A model generated the notes under the pieces. That model was not told the origin of the DNA, did not search any database, and worked only from the letters and a program-made list of their open reading frames with translations. Position numbers and translations under genes: made by a program. A stretch of 37,294 nt of DNA from Bacteroidota bacterium (GTDB lineage: Bacteria > Bacteroidota > Bacteroidia > Chitinophagales > Chitinophagaceae), in assembly GCA_947461595.1 (NCBI GenBank), contig CANHLZ010000002.1:1-37294 (forward strand), in the 5' to 3' direction. Below, piece by piece: positions 318-37,294 of the stretch; the first letter of the stretch is position 1; every line of letters starts with the position of its first letter.

Positions 318-1343
318 ATGGGATTATTTAACTTTTTTACTCAAGAAATTGCTATGGACTTGGGTACAGCTAACACACTCATCATTCATAATGATGAAGT
401 GGTAGTAAACGAACCTTCTATTATTGCTTTGAATAGAAATAATATGAAAGAAGTTTTAGGCGTGGGTAAGAAAGCATTGTTGATGCATGAAAAAACGCAT
501 GAAAGTATAAAAACCGTTCGTCCACTTAAAGATGGTGTAATTGCCGATTTTAACGCAGCAGAATTAATGATTCGCGAGTTGATGAAAATGATTTACCCAA
601 AGAAGCCATTATTTCCGCCAAGTTGGAGAATGGTTATTTGCATTCCTTCTTCCATTACTGAAGTTGAAAAAAGAGCGGTGCGTGATAGTGCAGAGCAAGC
701 AGGTGCAAAAGAAGTTTATATGATTCATGAACCGATGGCTGCTGCTTTAGGAATTGGTATTGATGTAGAAGAGCCCGTAGGAAATATGATTATTGATATT
801 GGAGGTGGTACCACTGGTATTACAGTTATTGCATTAGCAGGAATTGTTTGTGATCAAAGTATTCGTATTGCAGGAGATGAATTTACTGCAGATATTATGG
901 AAGCATTAAGAAGATATCATAGTTTATTAATTGGAGAGCGAACTGCAGAGCAAATTAAAATTCATGTAGGTGCTGCTTTAAAAGATTTAGACAACCCTCC
1001 AGATGATATGCCAGTCAACGGTCGTGACTTAGTAACTGGTATTCCAAAACAAATTATGGTTACCTACCAAGAAGTAGCAGAAGCCTTAGATAAAAGCATA
1101 TTTAAAATCGAAGAAGCTATTTTAAAGGCTTTAGAAACTACTCCGCCAGAACTAGCGGCAGACATTTATCGCAGAGGTTTGTATTTAACAGGGGGCGGTG
1201 CATTGTTACGCGGCTTAGATAAAAGATTAAGTCAAAAAATTAAATTGCCTGTTCATATTGCAGAGGATCCACTTAAAAGTGTAGTGCGCGGAACAGGTAT
1301 TGCGTTAAAAAATTACCAGCGTTTTCCTTTTATCATGAGATAA
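318..1343 (+). CDS. mreB: Rod shape-determining protein MreB (actin-like)
   Basis: MGLFNFFTQEIAMDLGTANTLI, IIDIGGGTTGITVIAL, LTGGGALLRGLDKRL; followed by mreC/mreD/PBP2/rodA. Confidence 0.97.
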   Translation: MGLFNFFTQEIAMDLGTANTLIIHNDEVVVNEPSIIALNRNNMKEVLGVGKKALLMHEKTHESIKTVRPLKDGVIADFNAAELMIRELMKMIYPKKPLFPPSWRMVICIPSSITEVEKRAVRDSAEQAGAKEVYMIHEPMAAALGIGIDVEEPVGNMIIDIGGGTTGITVIALAGIVCDQSIRIAGDEFTADIMEALRRYHSLLIGERTAEQIKIHVGAALKDLDNPPDDMPVNGRDLVTGIPKQIMVTYQEVAEALDKSIFKIEEAILKALETTPPELAADIYRRGLYLTGGGALLRGLDKRLSQKIKLPVHIAEDPLKSVVRGTGIALKNYQRFPFIMR

Positions 1344-1380
1344 AAGAATATTAAATCAACTTGTTTAAAGGAGATGAGCA

Positions 1381-2235
1381 TTGAAGAATATCATTGGGTT
1401 TTTAAGACAAAATTTTACTTTCCTAACTTTTTTGATACTTCAAATTGTATCATTGGTCGTGTTATCCTCTTATAACAAAACTTATGAAACCTTCTTTGGT
1501 GGATGGAGCAACCAAGTCACAGGCAATATCAATAAAAAATACAACGATTGGTCTTACTTTTTTAATTTAAAAAATACCAATGCGTTATTAATTGCAGAAA
1601 ATACGGCACTCAGAAATCAATTAGGTGAAAATTTCTCACCTATTGATACGAGCAAAAAATTAGGTACCCTTGTATTAAGAAAAGACAGCCTTGAGAAAAT
1701 AAGAAAGTTTTTCTACTACCCTGCTAAAGTAGTAGGCAATACTTTTACACTTCAAAAAAATTATATTACCATCGAAAGGGGAAGTTTGCAAGGTGTTAAA
1801 AAAGATATGGCTGCCATCAGTCCAGAAGGAAGTATTGTTGGTGTGGTGGTGGAAGTAAATGATAACTACAGTAAAATAATGAGTTTACTGCATCGCAATA
1901 GTAAAGTAAGTGCCATGCTAAAAAGAGATAAAATAGCCGGAAGCATTGAATGGGATGGAGAGGACCCTAGTGTATTGGTTTTAAAAAATATCTCAAAAAG
2001 CGCTGCTCCTAAAATTGGGGACTCTGTCTTAACCAGCCCCTATTCCTCTAATTTCCCAGCACAGCTAATGATTGGCAAAGTAACTTCCGTAATTAAAGAT
2101 CCCTCGAGTAACTATTTAACTTTAAATGTAAAATCGACTACTAATTTTTATAATTTAGAATACATTTATTTAGTAGAAAACAGGCGAATGGCAGATCAAA
2201 AAAATATAGAAAAAAACGAGCTTAAAAATGAATAA
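1381..2235 (+). CDS. mreC: Rod shape-determining protein MreC (TTG start)
   Basis: N-terminal TM, coiled coil, then the MreC domain (GSLQGVKKDMAAISPEGSIVGVVVEV). TTG start preceded by AAAGGAG at about 7 nt. Confidence 0.9.
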   Translation: MKNIIGFLRQNFTFLTFLILQIVSLVVLSSYNKTYETFFGGWSNQVTGNINKKYNDWSYFFNLKNTNALLIAENTALRNQLGENFSPIDTSKKLGTLVLRKDSLEKIRKFFYYPAKVVGNTFTLQKNYITIERGSLQGVKKDMAAISPEGSIVGVVVEVNDNYSKIMSLLHRNSKVSAMLKRDKIAGSIEWDGEDPSVLVLKNISKSAAPKIGDSVLTSPYSSNFPAQLMIGKVTSVIKDPSSNYLTLNVKSTTNFYNLEYIYLVENRRMADQKNIEKNELKNE

Positions 2236-2749
2236 CCTTATAAAGAATACAGCAAGGTTTGTTTTATTTTTAGCCATTCAAATTATTATTTTGAATGAAG
2301 TGCCTCCATTACATCAATTCATTACGCCCTATTTGTATTTTATTTTTTTATTATGGTTGCCATTTGGAACTAAAAGGATCACTTTAACACTACTTGGTTT
2401 TATCATCGGCTATACATTAGACTTATTTACGAATACTCCTGGGCTACATGCAGCAGCCTGCAGCTTGCTTGGTTACTTTAGGCCCACCATTTTAAATTTA
2501 TTATTGGCACAAGAATTATCGGAAGAAGTTAACCGAGAGCCAAGTATAGGCTCTATGGGATGGGGACCTTATGCCTTCTATGTATTCTCACTTACCTTCC
2601 TTCATCATTTTTATTTAGTTTTATTAGAATGGCTGCAGTTTGGAAACTTCGGCTACTTCTTGGGTAAAGTAATAGGAACTACTTTAGTAAGCGTACTTTT
2701 AATTTTTATAGTAGAACTTGCTACGAACCGAAGAAAGATAAAAAGATAA
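2228..2749 (+). CDS. mreD: Rod shape-determining protein MreD
   Basis: Multi-TM ~170 aa protein, start overlaps mreC end by 8 nt, located between mreC and PBP2. Confidence 0.85.
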   Translation: MNNLIKNTARFVLFLAIQIIILNEVPPLHQFITPYLYFIFLLWLPFGTKRITLTLLGFIIGYTLDLFTNTPGLHAAACSLLGYFRPTILNLLLAQELSEEVNREPSIGSMGWGPYAFYVFSLTFLHHFYLVLLEWLQFGNFGYFLGKVIGTTLVSVLLIFIVELATNRRKIKR

Positions 2750-2758
2750 CCCATTGCT

Positions 2759-4864
2759 ATGTACAATTCGAATCGAAGTCGTATTATTCAAATCATTATC
2801 GGAGTTATCTTTACATTAATCATTTTGCAACTGATTAGCTTGCAAATCTTTTCTTCAAAATATGTACTTGCGGCCAACAACAATGCCATTTTTAGACGGA
2901 TTATTTACCCTGATAGAGGTATTATTTTTGACAGAAAAAAAAGAGCCTTATTGGAGAATACCATTAGTTACGATTTAGTGGTCATCCCCAATGAAGCTAA
3001 AGGAGTAGATACAGCAACACTTTGCGCTATTCTAAAAATTGATAAAAAAGAGTATGCCAAAAGGATGGTAGAAGTGATTATAAAAAATACAAGGGTAAAA
3101 TTGGGTATTTTCGAACCCTTTCTTTCTACTGAAGTGTATGCTCAAATAACAGAAAATTTATATCGTTTCCCAGGATTCTCCTTATCAGAAAGATCCATTA
3201 GAAATTACCCTTACAATACTGCCGCCCATGTTTTAGGCTATGTAGCAGAAGTAGATATAAATTTTTTAAAAAAACATGAAGCAGATGGTTATGAAATGGG
3301 CGACTATGCGGGCATGACTGGATTAGAAAAACAATACGAGTCTATATTAATGGGGCAAAGAGGTGTAAAAAGATTTTTAAGAGACAACAAAGGAAAAATA
3401 CAGGGGCCATTTGAAAAAGGCGAGTTTGATACCACCGCCATTGCCGGTAGAAATTTATATACTAGTATGGATGTTGAAGTACAACAATTGGCGGAAAAAT
3501 TATTACAACACAAAATTGGAAGCGTAGTGGCTATCAACCCTAAATCAGGAAGTATCATCGCAATGGCCTCTAGCCCAGGATACAATCCTAATTTATTAAC
3601 AGGGAATCAGCGTCGGAAAACCATTGGTCGATTGCTCACAGATACTGCACGTCCTATTTACAATCGTGCCATTAAGGGACAATACCCTCCAGGATCTACC
3701 TTCAAACCGCTGGGTGCTTTAATCGCATTAGATGAAGGTTTGATTACCCCAAGTTTTGGCTACAATTGTTTTGGATTATATACTGCTTGCGGCGACCCAC
3801 GTAAATGCGAGCACCATAATGCTGGGCATGCTGGAAATTTACAATTGGCATTAGCCAACTCCTGTAATTCTTATTTTTTACAAGTATTTAGAATGGCCAT
3901 AGATAACCCAAAATATCATAATGCAAAATTGGGTTATTTAAAATGGAAAGAATATATGAATAGCTTTGGCTTAGGAAGAAAACTAGGTATTGATTTGCCA
4001 AGTGAAAATAGAGCCAACATCCCTGACACCGCACAATACAATAAAGATTTTGGTGGAGCAAAATATTGGAACAGTTGTTTTATGCTTACTTTAGGAATTG
4101 GGCAAGATAGGATGACGGCCACTCCTTTGCAATTGGCTAATACCATGGCTTTTATCGCTAATGATGGCTATTATTACACTCCACATTTTGTAGACAGTGT
4201 GGAAGAGGAAGATGATTACGATAAAGAATTACTTTTAAAATACAGAACAAAGCAAGAAGTAACTAAAATACCAAAAGAGTACTACGATGTCATTAAAGAA
4301 GGCATGCATGATGTAACCATTATTGGCACTGCGGCATTTATTAAAGTGCCTGGTCATGAATTTTGTGCAAAAACTGGTACAGCACAGAACCCACATGGAA
4401 AAAATCACTCCATGTTTGTTTGCTTTGCTCCAAAAGACAATCCTAAAATTGCAGTGGCTGTAGTAGTAGAAAATGCTGGATTTGGCTCTACTTGGGCAGG
4501 TCCAATTGCAGGTTTAATAATGGAAAAGTATTTAAATGATACCTTGACAAAAGAAAGTAAAACAAAAATGGATTACTTAGCGAATGTAGATTTAATGCCT
4601 GCCAATATTAAAGAATGGTATATCAGAAACAATAAAACCGAAATGCTCATTCCACTTAATTACAATAATGATGAGCTTTCTGATATTTGGGATATGGAGA
4701 TGCTATCGGAAACTGCTCCCATTAAGCTTAATGTAGATACCCTTAAAAAAATAGATACCTTTCAAAAAAATAAGCCTCCTGCATCACCCATTCCTCCAAA
4801 ACAAAACAACAAGGAAAGTATATTAACGCCTATTGAGAAAAAGAAAAAAGTGAATTCACAATAA
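2759..4864 (+). CDS. mrdA: Penicillin-binding protein 2 (peptidoglycan transpeptidase)
   Basis: N-terminal TM, dimerisation domain, GQYPPGSTFKPL (SxxK), SCNSYF (SxN), CAKTGTAQNP (KTG). Confidence 0.95.
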   Translation: MYNSNRSRIIQIIIGVIFTLIILQLISLQIFSSKYVLAANNNAIFRRIIYPDRGIIFDRKKRALLENTISYDLVVIPNEAKGVDTATLCAILKIDKKEYAKRMVEVIIKNTRVKLGIFEPFLSTEVYAQITENLYRFPGFSLSERSIRNYPYNTAAHVLGYVAEVDINFLKKHEADGYEMGDYAGMTGLEKQYESILMGQRGVKRFLRDNKGKIQGPFEKGEFDTTAIAGRNLYTSMDVEVQQLAEKLLQHKIGSVVAINPKSGSIIAMASSPGYNPNLLTGNQRRKTIGRLLTDTARPIYNRAIKGQYPPGSTFKPLGALIALDEGLITPSFGYNCFGLYTACGDPRKCEHHNAGHAGNLQLALANSCNSYFLQVFRMAIDNPKYHNAKLGYLKWKEYMNSFGLGRKLGIDLPSENRANIPDTAQYNKDFGGAKYWNSCFMLTLGIGQDRMTATPLQLANTMAFIANDGYYYTPHFVDSVEEEDDYDKELLLKYRTKQEVTKIPKEYYDVIKEGMHDVTIIGTAAFIKVPGHEFCAKTGTAQNPHGKNHSMFVCFAPKDNPKIAVAVVVENAGFGSTWAGPIAGLIMEKYLNDTLTKESKTKMDYLANVDLMPANIKEWYIRNNKTEMLIPLNYNNDELSDIWDMEMLSETAPIKLNVDTLKKIDTFQKNKPPASPIPPKQNNKESILTPIEKKKKVNSQ

Positions 4865-4865
4865 A

Positions 4866-6209
4866 ATGTCAACAATCAACAACCATAACTTTTCTAAAGG
4901 AACAGACTTGGCAGTCATACTGGTCTATATAATAATGGTAACCATTGGTGTCTTGTGTATTTTTATGGTTGAATACAACCCCAATTTAAATTGGAGTAAT
5001 TCATTTTTGACAGCCAAAACCAATTTTAGCAAACAAATTTATTTTTCCATCTTCTGTGCTTTCATTGCCATTTTTATACTGTTATTAGATAGTAAAGTTT
5101 TTACTGCCCTAGCTAACTTATCTTATGCAGCAGGCATACTGCTCATGCTGGCCACTTTTATACTTGGAAAAAATATCAATGGCTCTAAAAGTTGGATTCC
5201 TATTGCGGGCGGTTTTAATTTACAACCTGCTGAATTATGTAAAATATTTACTGCTTTATTTTTAGCGAAATTTATTTCCAAACCAGATACCGATTTTAAA
5301 AAACTAAAATCACATTTAATAGCAGGGGCAGCCATTGCGCTGCCTGCTATATTATCTATCATGCAGCATGAACTAGGATTGGCATTGGTATATAGTGCTT
5401 TTATTTTTGCCATGTATCGAGAAGGGCTTCCTCCTGTTATACTAGTGGTCTTGCTTTCATTTGCTATATTAGTGATAGCCACCTTATTGCTTGACCCTAG
5501 CTTACTTGCTATAATATTAACTGTAATTGCAGGGTTGTTCATTTTTGCAATGATTAAAAGATTTAAAAAAAATAAAAGTAAAATTTTAATCGTGGTTGCG
5601 ATTTGGGGGATTTGTTTTGGAACCGTACGTTTTGCAGTTCCTTATATATTCAACCATGTATTTGAGTGTTATCAAAGTACCCGTATCTATAGCATGGTAG
5701 GAAAAGAATACGACTGTGCTCAAAATAAAAAATCTGCTTCCTCTACTGGACTGCGTCACAGTAAAAAGCCAGATGATTACAACGTAAAACAAAGTAAAAT
5801 AGCCATAGGTTCTGGTGGTTTTTGGGGGAGAGGATTTTTAAAAGGAACGCAAACAAGAGGTAAATATGTGCCTGAACAACATACAGATTTTATATTTACC
5901 TCCTTAGGGGAAGCTTTTGGTTTTGTGGGTACCTTTATATTTTTAGGCTTGTATTTATTTTTCTTATTTAGACTCGTTCGTATTGCAGAAAGACAAAGAA
6001 GTGCTTTTTCAAGGGTATACGCCTATAGCGTAGTGGGCATCTTCTTTTTTCATATTGCAGTCAACATTAGTATGACCATTGGATTGTTTCCAGTAGTGGG
6101 CATCCCCTTGCCACTTATAAGTTATGGGGGATCTTCTTTGTTAACTTTTACGGTACTATTATTTATTTTATTAAGATTAGATGCCGATAGGCAAATGGTG
6201 CTTCGTTAA
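4866..6209 (+). CDS. rodA: Rod shape-determining protein RodA (SEDS glycosyltransferase)
   Basis: NGSKSWIPIAGGFNLQPAELCKI, QSKIAIGSGGFWGRGFLKGTQTRGKYVPEQHTDFIF, GIPLPLISYGGSSLL. Confidence 0.95.
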   Translation: MSTINNHNFSKGTDLAVILVYIIMVTIGVLCIFMVEYNPNLNWSNSFLTAKTNFSKQIYFSIFCAFIAIFILLLDSKVFTALANLSYAAGILLMLATFILGKNINGSKSWIPIAGGFNLQPAELCKIFTALFLAKFISKPDTDFKKLKSHLIAGAAIALPAILSIMQHELGLALVYSAFIFAMYREGLPPVILVVLLSFAILVIATLLLDPSLLAIILTVIAGLFIFAMIKRFKKNKSKILIVVAIWGICFGTVRFAVPYIFNHVFECYQSTRIYSMVGKEYDCAQNKKSASSTGLRHSKKPDDYNVKQSKIAIGSGGFWGRGFLKGTQTRGKYVPEQHTDFIFTSLGEAFGFVGTFIFLGLYLFFLFRLVRIAERQRSAFSRVYAYSVVGIFFFHIAVNISMTIGLFPVVGIPLPLISYGGSSLLTFTVLLFILLRLDADRQMVLR

Positions 6210-32981: not shown

Positions 32982-33869
32982 CTAGTGCACTACTAAATTG
33001 CTGTGGATAGTAGCATCATATGGAAATCTCCAACGTCTATGTGTCCATAAATAATTGGAAGGATTTTGCTTTATTTTTTCTTCTAGTACTTTAACATACA
33101 AAGCGGTTAACTGCCCATCTTTAAAATAATTAGGAGAAGTGGTCATGATTTCATATTCAGAATGATAATATCCTCTTTTAACTCTATAAAAATGTACAAA
33201 TACTTGTGCTGTATTATTTAATTTAGCACCTTTCTCTGGACCCTTAACAAAGGGAGTAAGTTGACCAAAAAAGGGAACCCAAAAAGCAGATAAAGGATTG
33301 CCAGGATTTTGATCGGCAGCCAATGCCATTGCATAGCGTCCTTTAGTAGCAAATTTTTGAAACTGTGCTCTAAAATTCGTAGCCGGAATCATGATACTAC
33401 CATACCTTTTTCTTAATCCTAATATTATTTTATTAAAATAAGGATTACTCAAAGGCATATATACAGCAATAAATGGATACTGACCATACTTGGCTACGCC
33501 CCAATTGGCAAACTCCCAATTAAAAAAATGGCCTGCCATAATTTGTACATTTTGCCCAGTCTTATATAAATCATTCAATACTTCATAATTTGAACTAAAC
33601 CTTTTCTCAAAAGTTTTATCTGACATAGAAAGTAACTTAAAAGTTTCAATAAAGGAATCTGTAAATTGTCTATAAAAATCATTGGCAATTTTTTTCCTTT
33701 CGAGAACAGTCTTATTGGGAAATGCAATACTTAAGTTTTGTTTCACCACCTCTACTCTATACTTGACTACTCTTTGTAATATAAAAGCAACAATATCGCT
33801 TAATAAATACATGAATCGCCAAGGAAGCAAAGAAAATAAATAACAAAAACTATAAATAATAAAATACAT
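32982..33869 (-). CDS. LpxL/HtrB-like lysophospholipid (lipid A) acyltransferase
   Basis: N-terminal TM; MAGHFFNWEFANWG (HxxxxE); VEVVKQNLSIAFPNKTVLERKKIANDFYRQFTDSFIE. Confidence 0.9.
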   Translation of the reverse strand: MYFIIYSFCYLFSLLPWRFMYLLSDIVAFILQRVVKYRVEVVKQNLSIAFPNKTVLERKKIANDFYRQFTDSFIETFKLLSMSDKTFEKRFSSNYEVLNDLYKTGQNVQIMAGHFFNWEFANWGVAKYGQYPFIAVYMPLSNPYFNKIILGLRKRYGSIMIPATNFRAQFQKFATKGRYAMALAADQNPGNPLSAFWVPFFGQLTPFVKGPEKGAKLNNTAQVFVHFYRVKRGYYHSEYEIMTTSPNYFKDGQLTALYVKVLEEKIKQNPSNYLWTHRRWRFPYDATIHSNLVVH

Positions 33870-33893: not shown

Positions 33894-35909
33894 TTATTGC
33901 GGTGCTATCCAAGCACCATGTTCTTTCAAAAGTTGAATGAGTTCATCTACAGCTACCGCGCTGTCTATATTCCTTTTCATCACTTCCTTCCCTTTGTACA
34001 AAGTGATTTTACCTACTCCACTTCCCACATAACCAAAGTCGGCATCTGCCATTTCCCCAGGTCCATTTACAATACAACCCATAATGGCTATCTTCAAACC
34101 TTTTAAATGACTGGTTACACTTCTTATTTTAGCGGTGGTTTCCTGCAATTCAAATAAGGTTCTGCCACAACTAGGGCAAGAAATATATTCTGTTTTTGAA
34201 ATTCTAGTTCTAGTGGCTTGTAATATTCCAAAAGCAGTGGTATTTAAAAACTGTTCCATGGAAAGATTGCTAAAATAATTTCTACCAGATACTTTACCTC
34301 CTTCCGTGGACAAAGCAAAATCGGAGTGCACTTTTTCATTCACTCCCAAAAACAAACCATCTCCCATGCCATCCAATAAAAGAGCGCCTGTTTCAGTCGC
34401 AAAATGTATCAAATGCTCATCGGCAGTAGCCCATGCACTTTGCGTAGATAAAATAATAGGATTGCTAATATTTAATTCCATCATTCGAACCACCATGCGA
34501 CGCACTGCTGGCATCGCATGTGCTAAGGGACTGCTCAAGCAAAAAACAACTGATTTGTCTTTAGCAATTTCTAGCAATTGGTCTTCTCTTATTCCATTCT
34601 TAAACCCAAAACAATCTACTTCTACAAAGTTGATAAAAGCGCTTTTACGAGTGGCTTTTAAATATTCTTTATAATCAAAAATGGGTAAATATTTCGTGCG
34701 GTCAGTTACGGTTTCCCATAATTCAGGGGTAGTAATCACTCTTAAGGTACCAGGTAATTCAAAATCCAATAACGCATTTTGTAAATAAATAAAATCCGCA
34801 GCCGCATCCGAAATATTCCACTTGTCGGTAGCTGCATCATATTGATACCCTATTGCAATTAGATCATCTGGGGCAATAGTTGGTTTATGTCTGAAATCGG
34901 AAATTACCACAGGAACAGACTTACTTCCAATAATATGATTGCTTATAGTAGCTCTTCTTTTATATTCAAAAGGATTGTAGGTCAATTTTTCAATGGAGGG
35001 GATATGCTGGATACCTTTCATTCTATTTGCGGGATATCTCCTCACTAAATCTTTACACACAGGTATTTCTAATTCTGGGTCTTCTGTTAAACTTACTCTA
35101 ATAGTATCACCAATACCATCTTCTAATAAAGTACCTATGCCAATGGCACTTTTAATACGACCATCTTCCCCATCACCTGCTTCAGTTACACCCAGATGCA
35201 ATGGATAACATTCTTTAAATTCATTTTGCATTTGTTGTATCAGCAATCGATAAGCTTGCACCATCACTAATGGATTGCTCGATTTCATGCTTAGAATAAT
35301 TTGGTGGTAGTCTAAGCTTCTTGCAATACGTAGAAATTCCATAGCACTCTCTACCATACCCATCGCTGTATCACCATACCTACTCATTATACGATCACTT
35401 AAGGAACCATGATTGGTACCAATGCGCATGGCAGTTCCATGCTGCTTGCAAATCAAAACCAAAGGAGAAAATCTTTCTCTAATCCTTTCTATTTCTTCTA
35501 AATATTCCGCATCTGTATATTCAATTTGTTCAAATTTTTTCTTGTCTACATAGTTACCCGGATTCACTCTTACTTTGGCCACAATAGTGGCAGCTATTTC
35601 AGCAGCATTGGGTGTAAAATGTATATCTGCAACTAAAGGGGTAGTAAAACCTTTGGCTTGTAAGGAAGCTTTAATAGCAGCTAAATTTTCCGCTTCCGTT
35701 TTACTTGGTGCAGTAATCCTTACTAATTCTGCCCCTGCTTCAATACAACGAATTACTTGAGCCACTGTTTTTTCGGTATCTAAAGTATCCGTAGTGGTCA
35801 TTGTTTGAATTCGGATCGGTTGACCTCCGCCAATGATTAAATCACCCACTTTTACTTCTCTAGTAATTAGGCGTTGATAGTTGGTTAAAGAATTGCAATA
35901 TTGTTCCAT
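33894..35909 (-). CDS. ispG: 4-hydroxy-3-methylbut-2-enyl diphosphate synthase, large-insert form
   Basis: GGGQPIRIQTMTTTDTLDTEKTVAQV; LVADIHFTPNAAE; CPSCGRTLFEL...IMGCIVNGPGEMADADFGYVG. Confidence 0.97.
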   Translation of the reverse strand: MEQYCNSLTNYQRLITREVKVGDLIIGGGQPIRIQTMTTTDTLDTEKTVAQVIRCIEAGAELVRITAPSKTEAENLAAIKASLQAKGFTTPLVADIHFTPNAAEIAATIVAKVRVNPGNYVDKKKFEQIEYTDAEYLEEIERIRERFSPLVLICKQHGTAMRIGTNHGSLSDRIMSRYGDTAMGMVESAMEFLRIARSLDYHQIILSMKSSNPLVMVQAYRLLIQQMQNEFKECYPLHLGVTEAGDGEDGRIKSAIGIGTLLEDGIGDTIRVSLTEDPELEIPVCKDLVRRYPANRMKGIQHIPSIEKLTYNPFEYKRRATISNHIIGSKSVPVVISDFRHKPTIAPDDLIAIGYQYDAATDKWNISDAAADFIYLQNALLDFELPGTLRVITTPELWETVTDRTKYLPIFDYKEYLKATRKSAFINFVEVDCFGFKNGIREDQLLEIAKDKSVVFCLSSPLAHAMPAVRRMVVRMMELNISNPIILSTQSAWATADEHLIHFATETGALLLDGMGDGLFLGVNEKVHSDFALSTEGGKVSGRNYFSNLSMEQFLNTTAFGILQATRTRISKTEYISCPSCGRTLFELQETTAKIRSVTSHLKGLKIAIMGCIVNGPGEMADADFGYVGSGVGKITLYKGKEVMKRNIDSAVAVDELIQLLKEHGAWIAPQ

Positions 35910-35943: not shown

Positions 35944-36693
35944 CTATCTAAGCCCTTTTAAAAATCCCTGTTGTAATAAAATGGCTTTCAATAAAGATAC
36001 TGAAGACATGGAGGCAGTCTGATTGTCCATTCCTTTGGTCCCAGCACTTGTATTTAAAACAAAAAAGTAGATATGCTTATTTTCTTCAACAAAACCTACC
36101 ACCCACGAATTTTGGCTCAATGAATCAGAAGCTTCTATATAACTTAAATGATAGTTGCTATTATCCTCTTTTGAAATCATTTTTTTAAATAACTCCTGCG
36201 AACGCTTTTGAAAGGGCAACTCTTTAAAATACATTTTTTTAATAAGGCCAAGCTGTTCGTCGGCAGTGATACGTAAGGATTGATCTCTCCAAAATTCATT
36301 GCTATTAGCACTTATCACCCCTTTCCCATAATGAATAGAATCAATGCTTTTAATGATTGTCTCTCTTCCAAGAATGGACATTAAATTTTGATAAAATGCA
36401 CTTGAATCGGTGCTCACCCAGGTATTTTGATTTTGATTGATGACCCCCTTGTCCAATGCAATTAAACTTGGGATGATAAAAAAAGTATTCAATGGACTAT
36501 AGGCCGAATCTTTATACCGAGACAAATTTGCAATAGTAAATTGACCAGAACCATTTTCGAGTAAAGCAAAGCTTCCTTGAACGCCTGCACTATCCAAAAG
36601 TTTTGAAATGCCAGCATCCAATTTTACATTGTTTGGCGAGCAGGCAAAAAATAAGGTTGCCACAATAAATAAGGAAAAAAGCTTTTGATTCAT
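35944..36693 (-). CDS. Class D beta-lactamase-like lipoprotein, probable pseudo-enzyme
   Basis: Lipobox TLFFAC; YSPLNTFFIIPSLIALDKGVI aligns to OXA-type PaSTFKIPnaLiaL; IHYGKGVI...EFWRDQSLRITADEQLGLIKKMYFKELPFQKRSQELFKKMI and NSWVVGFVEENKHIYFFVLNT match OXA-type regions. Confidence 0.75.
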   Translation of the reverse strand: MNQKLFSLFIVATLFFACSPNNVKLDAGISKLLDSAGVQGSFALLENGSGQFTIANLSRYKDSAYSPLNTFFIIPSLIALDKGVINQNQNTWVSTDSSAFYQNLMSILGRETIIKSIDSIHYGKGVISANSNEFWRDQSLRITADEQLGLIKKMYFKELPFQKRSQELFKKMISKEDNSNYHLSYIEASDSLSQNSWVVGFVEENKHIYFFVLNTSAGTKGMDNQTASMSSVSLLKAILLQQGFLKGLR

Positions 36694-36792: not shown

Positions 36793-37294
36793 TTATTCTA
36801 TGCCCAATAATTCTACTTCAAATATCAAAGTAGACCCTGGTCCTATGAATGGTCCAGCTGAACGCTCACCATAAGCTAACTCTGAAGGAATAAATAACTT
36901 CCATTTACTGCCCAATGTCATTAATTGCAATCCATCTTGCCAGCCTTTAATTACTCCATTCAAAGGAAAGCTAATTGGCTCACCTCTTTGAACAGAACTA
37001 TCAAAAACAGTTCCATCAATTAAAGTGCCATGGTAATGTACTTTCACTTTACTCTTTAAAGTAGGTTTGGTGGTGTCATTGCTTGCTACAATAACTTGGT
37101 ATTGCATGCCATTAGACATTTTAATTACGCCTGGTTTTTTTGCATTTTCAGCTAAAAAATTAGCGCCAATTTCGCGATTTAGTGTGATTTTTTCTTGACT
37201 CATTGTATCTTGGTAGGTTTTAATGCAAACGTCTAATAAACTATCTGGAATGACTCCTTTTGAAAGAAATCCAGCTAAGATACCCTTTTCAAAG
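36793..37294 (-). CDS. FKBP-type peptidyl-prolyl isomerase, N-terminus cut by window end
   Basis: [46 protein letters not shown]...[16 protein letters not shown]. The frame stays open past the track start (37203) to the edge ([31 protein letters not shown]). Confidence 0.93.

Follow-up and report, generated by a model that had tools for sequence, protein, structure and literature searches.

A class D beta-lactamase-like lipoprotein of Chitinophagaceae without its catalytic residues, encoded at a conserved locus where the catalytic motifs have been lost repeatedly

The window, i.e. the whole stretch of 37,294 nucleotides that has been analysed, carries on its reverse strand an intact gene for a class D beta-lactamase-like lipoprotein of 249 amino acids (positions 35944..36693), in which the catalytic residues have been lost. 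The homology of this protein, its lack of catalytic residues and its intact ORF, apparently under selection, would make it a pseudoenzyme of the class D family. At the same gene in Chitinophagaceae, the catalytic motifs have been lost independently at least 11 times (11-18), and in many cases relatives of the same genus have kept them. The explanation that we favour, and hold to be reasonably probable, is that the window protein is the in-place descendant of a core class D lipoprotein, with catalysis lost and the fold kept for a selected, non-catalytic role in the envelope; it joins what we have observed of the ancestry, the motif loss, the intact ORFs, the low omega, the conserved locus and the repeated losses.

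The class D ancestry of the window protein is beyond doubt. The NCBIfam class D profile NF012161 matches the protein with E=3.5e-31, at 108 bits versus a curated equivalog cut-off of 250; the closest solved structure, found by phmmer against the PDB, is a class D enzyme of Chitinophaga pinensis (7K3M, E=2.1e-29), and a profile built from 23 members of the window clade reaches E=3.1e-43 against the PDB. The AlphaFold2 model of the protein, for which 26 sequences were used, has moderate confidence scores (pLDDT 71, pTM 0.65), and the best 50 PDB neighbours of this model by Foldseek are all class D enzymes (E 1e-15 to 2e-16, TM 0.54-0.59). The profile search and the structure prediction had both been named as checks by the first-pass annotation, made from the letters alone; the former has returned the class D profile, under its curated cut-off, and the latter, as far as a predicted model can tell, leaves the proposed fold standing.

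The gene starts at 36693 and opens with a signal peptide and lipobox (36640..36693, reverse strand, as are all features below), whose last residue is Cys18 (LFFAC), followed by a conserved SPNNV; in an alignment comparison, Cys18 is kept in 95/95 active, 31/31 other dead and 24/24 clade sequences. The equivalent of the SxxK motif is N69-T70-F71-F72 (36478..36489): in the alignment with the Cpin_0907 block PASTFKIFNSLVGLETGVI (7K3M/8EP6), N-T-F-F falls on S-T-F-K with no gaps, so that Asn69 (codon 36487-36489) occupies the position of the catalytic Ser and Phe72 (codon 36478-36480) that of the carbamylated Lys. The equivalent of KTG is I186-E187-A188, read within 'YIEAS' (36130..36138). The class D signature stretches IHYGKGVI, FWRDQSLRITADEQ, LPFQKRSQELFKKM and SWVVGFVEENKHIYFFVLN are all found in the window protein, which keeps Y122-G123 of the YGN motif (36325..36330, reading YGK) and W135 (36289..36291), the equivalent of the Trp that contacts the carbamylated Lys in active class D enzymes. 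In its coordinates and letters the first-pass annotation has proved exact: it had placed Asn and Phe at these very codons by a gap-free alignment on an OXA-type block, read YIEAS where KTG was expected, and described the other signature blocks as kept in an intact ORF.

Its description of an erased catalytic machinery is right for Ser, Lys and KTG, but it had missed three further changes. The stretch that leads from the SxxK helix to the SxV motif is shortened (36391..36438), with about 20 residues fewer than in active relatives; the Ser of SxV is replaced by Asp96, in the window protein as in 24/24 clade members; and Ser231 (36001..36003) stands at the position of the carboxylate-binding Arg (the equivalent of OXA-48 R250), which is Arg in 223/233 active and 6/44 dead family copies. 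The shortened loop, Asp96 and Ser231 mean that the recognised ligand contacts have gone along with hydrolysis.

Two groups of active enzymes serve for comparison. The OXA-48-like class D beta-lactamases are the top Foldseek matches of the predicted model (E 2e-16, TM about 0.56), but S70, K73, S118, K208-T209-G210 and R250 (OXA-48 numbering) are all absent in the window protein. Cpin_0907 (PDB 7K3M, 8EP6; PMC9455217) is the best PDB sequence match across the whole mature protein and ranks fourth in the fold search, and it shares the NNV near the N-terminus and a similar C-terminus; it has, however, STFK, the full loop and SYKTG, all three of which the window protein lacks.

The window clade comprises 24 sequences: the window protein, 22 orthologues and one further copy of the same genus (G265). 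The 22 orthologues share 57-90% identity; their MAGs carry the labels Sediminibacterium, Chitinophaga, Chitinophagaceae or Bacteroidetes, and the names of many point to lakes. All 23 other members come from freshwater Sediminibacterium-type genomes. The ORF is intact and W135 is present in 24/24 members. Phe72 is likewise invariant (24/24), at a position that is Lys in 233/233 active copies, while N, S, A and H all occur at the Ser position. Whether N and F replace S and K consistently in orthologues, as the first-pass annotation had asked, is answered by a loss that the orthologues do keep consistently, with Phe invariant and Asn variable. The KTG and Arg positions drift, the latter between S, N, A and H. 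A strain-specific loss or an assembly error has been rejected, as the 23 other clade members carry the same loss in separate assemblies, and a substitute Ser within the motif has been rejected as well, Ser66 being Ala in many clade members. Of the 89 positions that are fixed in the clade, 19 carry residues that are rare in active copies, including F72, P75 and D96; K124 and G125 are also among the clade-specific fixed residues.

The window gene is the orthologue of the ispG-linked class D gene of the family: it occupies the same locus and is usually present in a single copy, profile searches giving a single match in most family genomes. The gene ispG (33894..35909, 671 aa) lies 34 bp downstream on the same strand and is a conserved neighbour in the family, found downstream on the same strand in 91/91 family genomes, 75 of them intact and 16 dead, whose fetched flank reaches ispG, the remaining genomes having a flank that is too short or no ispG nearby. 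An FKBP-type prolyl isomerase-like gene, named from its sequence alone (36793..37203), is located directly upstream, and the order FKBP, class D-like gene, ispG is seen in the clade wherever the contigs extend far enough. In three motif-intact relatives of the same genus the gene likewise stands directly before ispG; we are therefore looking at one locus in two states. A lipid A acyltransferase-like gene (32982..33869; PF03279, E=4.3e-37) follows ispG in the window. In the window clade these two genes are adjacent; in intact Sediminibacterium-type relatives (L035-L037) an L-aspartate oxidase-like ORF separates them. Many relatives (L040, L041, L154) have VWA- and TPR-protein-like (Bat-like) genes between the class D gene and ispG, which the window clade lacks, as far as genes named from sequence allow. 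Four genomes (G004, G120, G228, G089; L130-L133) have, besides, a diverged second gene of class D whose SxxK and KTG are intact.

Across Chitinophagaceae, we have found a homologue in 285/296 genomes and in 248/250 good-quality genomes. We have classified 277/296 genomes by their motifs (the other 19 have no gene, fragments, or a gene that was not fetched), calling a copy intact, i.e. putatively active, when Ser, Lys and KTG/KSG are all kept, and dead when any among Ser, Lys and KTG is lost. By this assignment 233/277 are intact and 44/277 are dead; the dead copies occur in 23/102 genera, 12 of which also contain intact copies. All three motifs are lost in 27/44 dead copies and only one in five: Lys alone in G179, G283 and G226 (L091, L209, L254; Asn or Glu there), Ser alone in G170 and KTG alone in G146. 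Since 40/44 dead copies include the loss of Lys (with Asn, Asp, Gln or Glu in 31/40) and Lys is the sole loss in three genomes, it often seems to be the first to go. The Ala that precedes the Ser has become Gly in 24/44 dead versus 2/233 intact copies. The scaffold is retained: the dead family copies keep the Y and the G of YGN in 44/44 and 40/44, and the Trp equivalent to W135 in 41/44; in dead copies that do not belong to the window clade, the scaffold residues Y, W, DEQ-G, LPF, W197, G200, E203 and F211 stand at 0.87-1.0, and the catalytic and ligand residues fall from about 1.0 to 0.1-0.55.

The number of losses has been estimated from trees, the columns of the trait itself being left out of the 157-row and 300-row alignments used for parsimony. 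The changes needed are 16 on 157 rows and 18 on 300 rows, the 300-row tree having 18 maximal dead clades. In a cleaner set of 49 rows, drawn from 11 mixed genera, each dead copy groups with its own genus and 11 changes are needed; a single dead clade fits this set worse (delta lnL 434, p-AU 0.025). The IspG tree of 113 loci, which covers part of the cases, has eight dead clades. A single ancient dead paralogue is thus disfavoured by the 300-row, IspG and 49-row trees. The 300-row tree unites 11 other dead copies with the window clade, a grouping that we treat as probable long-branch attraction, and for this reason the count is given as 11-18. The direction is taken to be from intact to dead, because the regain of several motifs at once is implausible. 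The window protein is accordingly no isolated oddity: it is the end state of a loss that a single core gene has undergone on at least 11 occasions.

Two general causes have been considered for these losses and rejected. Replacement by a class A enzyme is not a general explanation, because a PF13354 match of E<1e-40 is about as common in dead (29/44) as in intact sister genomes (19/32); no such match was found in the window genome (an assembly of 156 contigs, 73.7% complete) nor in G265. Genome reduction in dead lineages gives no signal, the genomes being smaller in only 7/12 mixed genera.

To judge from the motifs, the repeated loss with a gene that is almost always intact suggests a useful function other than the destruction of antibiotics. 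We propose that the ancestor was a class D beta-lactamase lipoprotein which belongs to the core genes of Chitinophagaceae and is inherited vertically; that the window clade and many other lineages, independently, lost the residues for acylating and holding beta-lactams, purifying selection on the folded protein staying in place; and that the protein, anchored in the membrane, may serve in the periplasm as scaffold or regulator for a partner in the envelope. From the retention of the protein we infer that the non-catalytic role, most likely of this scaffold or regulator kind by analogy, is already present in the active relatives; on this proposal, hydrolysis could be lost without loss of the protein because the other job was already there. 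The role is probably common to the intact relatives, though the reason may also differ from one dead lineage to another. The wider claim, that the family-wide core OXA-type protein has a conserved envelope function that is neither antibiotic-related nor catalytic, with hydrolysis dispensable, we put forward tentatively, at slightly less than an even chance. For the window protein, a peptidoglycan-related or adaptor role, as the first-pass annotation had suggested, is possible.

The working mode would resemble that of NlpD and EnvC toward amidases, which are described (PMC5533458, PMC7668044, PMC8360153) as catalytically degenerate LytM factors that regulate these enzymes. As portrayed there, the likeness would be that of a peptidoglycan-enzyme fold without catalysis and of a regulated partner, NlpD being also a lipoprotein; their fold is nevertheless unrelated, so that they serve as a working analogy and not as relatives. 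Pseudoenzymes in general, e.g. pseudopeptidases (PMC11266112), similarly keep a fold that has lost catalysis and are often regulatory or scaffolding; what differs here is that orthologues of a single core gene have lost it many times over.

The other explanations have to be weighed against the same evidence. It is unlikely that catalysis has become useless and that the gene is drifting toward loss, caught early in many lineages, even though an in-frame stop lies inside the class D match of the dead copies G125, G075 and G170; a stop is also found in G108, whose motifs are intact, and these four may reflect decay or assembly error. Omega, in averages from quick codon fits with synonymous sites saturated in deep groups, is 0.079 for the 24 clade sequences and 0.091 for the nine nearest or inner members, within the range of six groups of intact relatives (0.011-0.098), and pairwise dN/dS in the clade is 0.06-0.17 at dS<1.2. 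Some relaxation is possible, because omega reaches 0.12 in some dead groups, slightly above the active ones; decay is, however, hard to reconcile with an omega of 0.08 across 24 species, with intact ORFs and clade-specific fixed positions, and with a gene that is lost entirely in only 2/250 good-quality genomes versus at least 11 losses of its motifs. The same dN/dS values, which the first-pass annotation had asked for, together with the clade-wide loss and the intact ORF of every member, favour its reading of a fold kept without hydrolysis.

We regard it as quite unlikely that the protein is a sensor or sink that still binds beta-lactams or muropeptides, without hydrolysis, in the manner of the sensor domains of BlaR1 and MecR1. 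The sensors BlaR1 and MecR1 share the fold and family of the window protein and do not hydrolyse, and BlaR1 is among the better profile matches (NF000326, E=8.9e-23; its PDB entry 1nrf is also matched by the clade profile); furthermore, the three copies that lack Lys alone keep Ser and KTG and might, judged by these motifs, still be acylated by beta-lactams, in which state a covalent acyl complex could persist. BlaR1 and MecR1, however, retain the acylated Ser, within a transmembrane receptor, whereas the window protein has Asn69 and is a single-domain lipoprotein without a transmembrane receptor or metalloprotease domain. The window clade lacks the Ser, the SxV Ser, the KTG Lys and the carboxylate Arg, i.e., with the Lys of SxxK, the residues that hold a beta-lactam, so that a role as beta-lactam sensor or binder, which the first-pass annotation had also entertained, is unlikely for this clade.

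The clade-specific fixed residues F72, P75, D96, K124 and G125 could belong to a remodelled pocket that catalyses another reaction, but we hold this to be very unlikely, as no conserved nucleophile or general base visibly replaces Ser and Lys, Ser66 is Ala in many members, and the KTG and Arg positions vary. Least credible of all is that the frame is kept only since a stop or deletion would hurt the expression of ispG, which directly adjoins the gene in the clade and shares its strand throughout the flanks covered: polarity would keep a frame open but would account neither for a dN/dS near 0.08 nor for fixed amino acids, and in many relatives other genes intervene.

In the open literature we have found no family of inactive class D lipoproteins described, which is weak evidence of novelty. 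The family bears on the question of how class D beta-lactamases benefit their hosts beyond antibiotic resistance: the same core gene repeatedly loses its catalytic residues and is hardly ever deleted, giving matched active and dead pairs within genera (e.g. g94, g42, g10, g82) that allow a direct test of a native non-catalytic role. If our reading is true, evolution would have performed the catalytic knockout a dozen or more times. The family also calls for caution in annotation, given that the dead proteins score far under the curated class D cut-offs and looser searches would call them resistance genes. The window that encodes the putative pseudoenzyme also contains, in a single run at positions 318-6209, mreB, mreC, an ORF (2228-2749), a PBP2-type transpeptidase and a RodA/FtsW-type gene, an ordinary rod-shape cluster.
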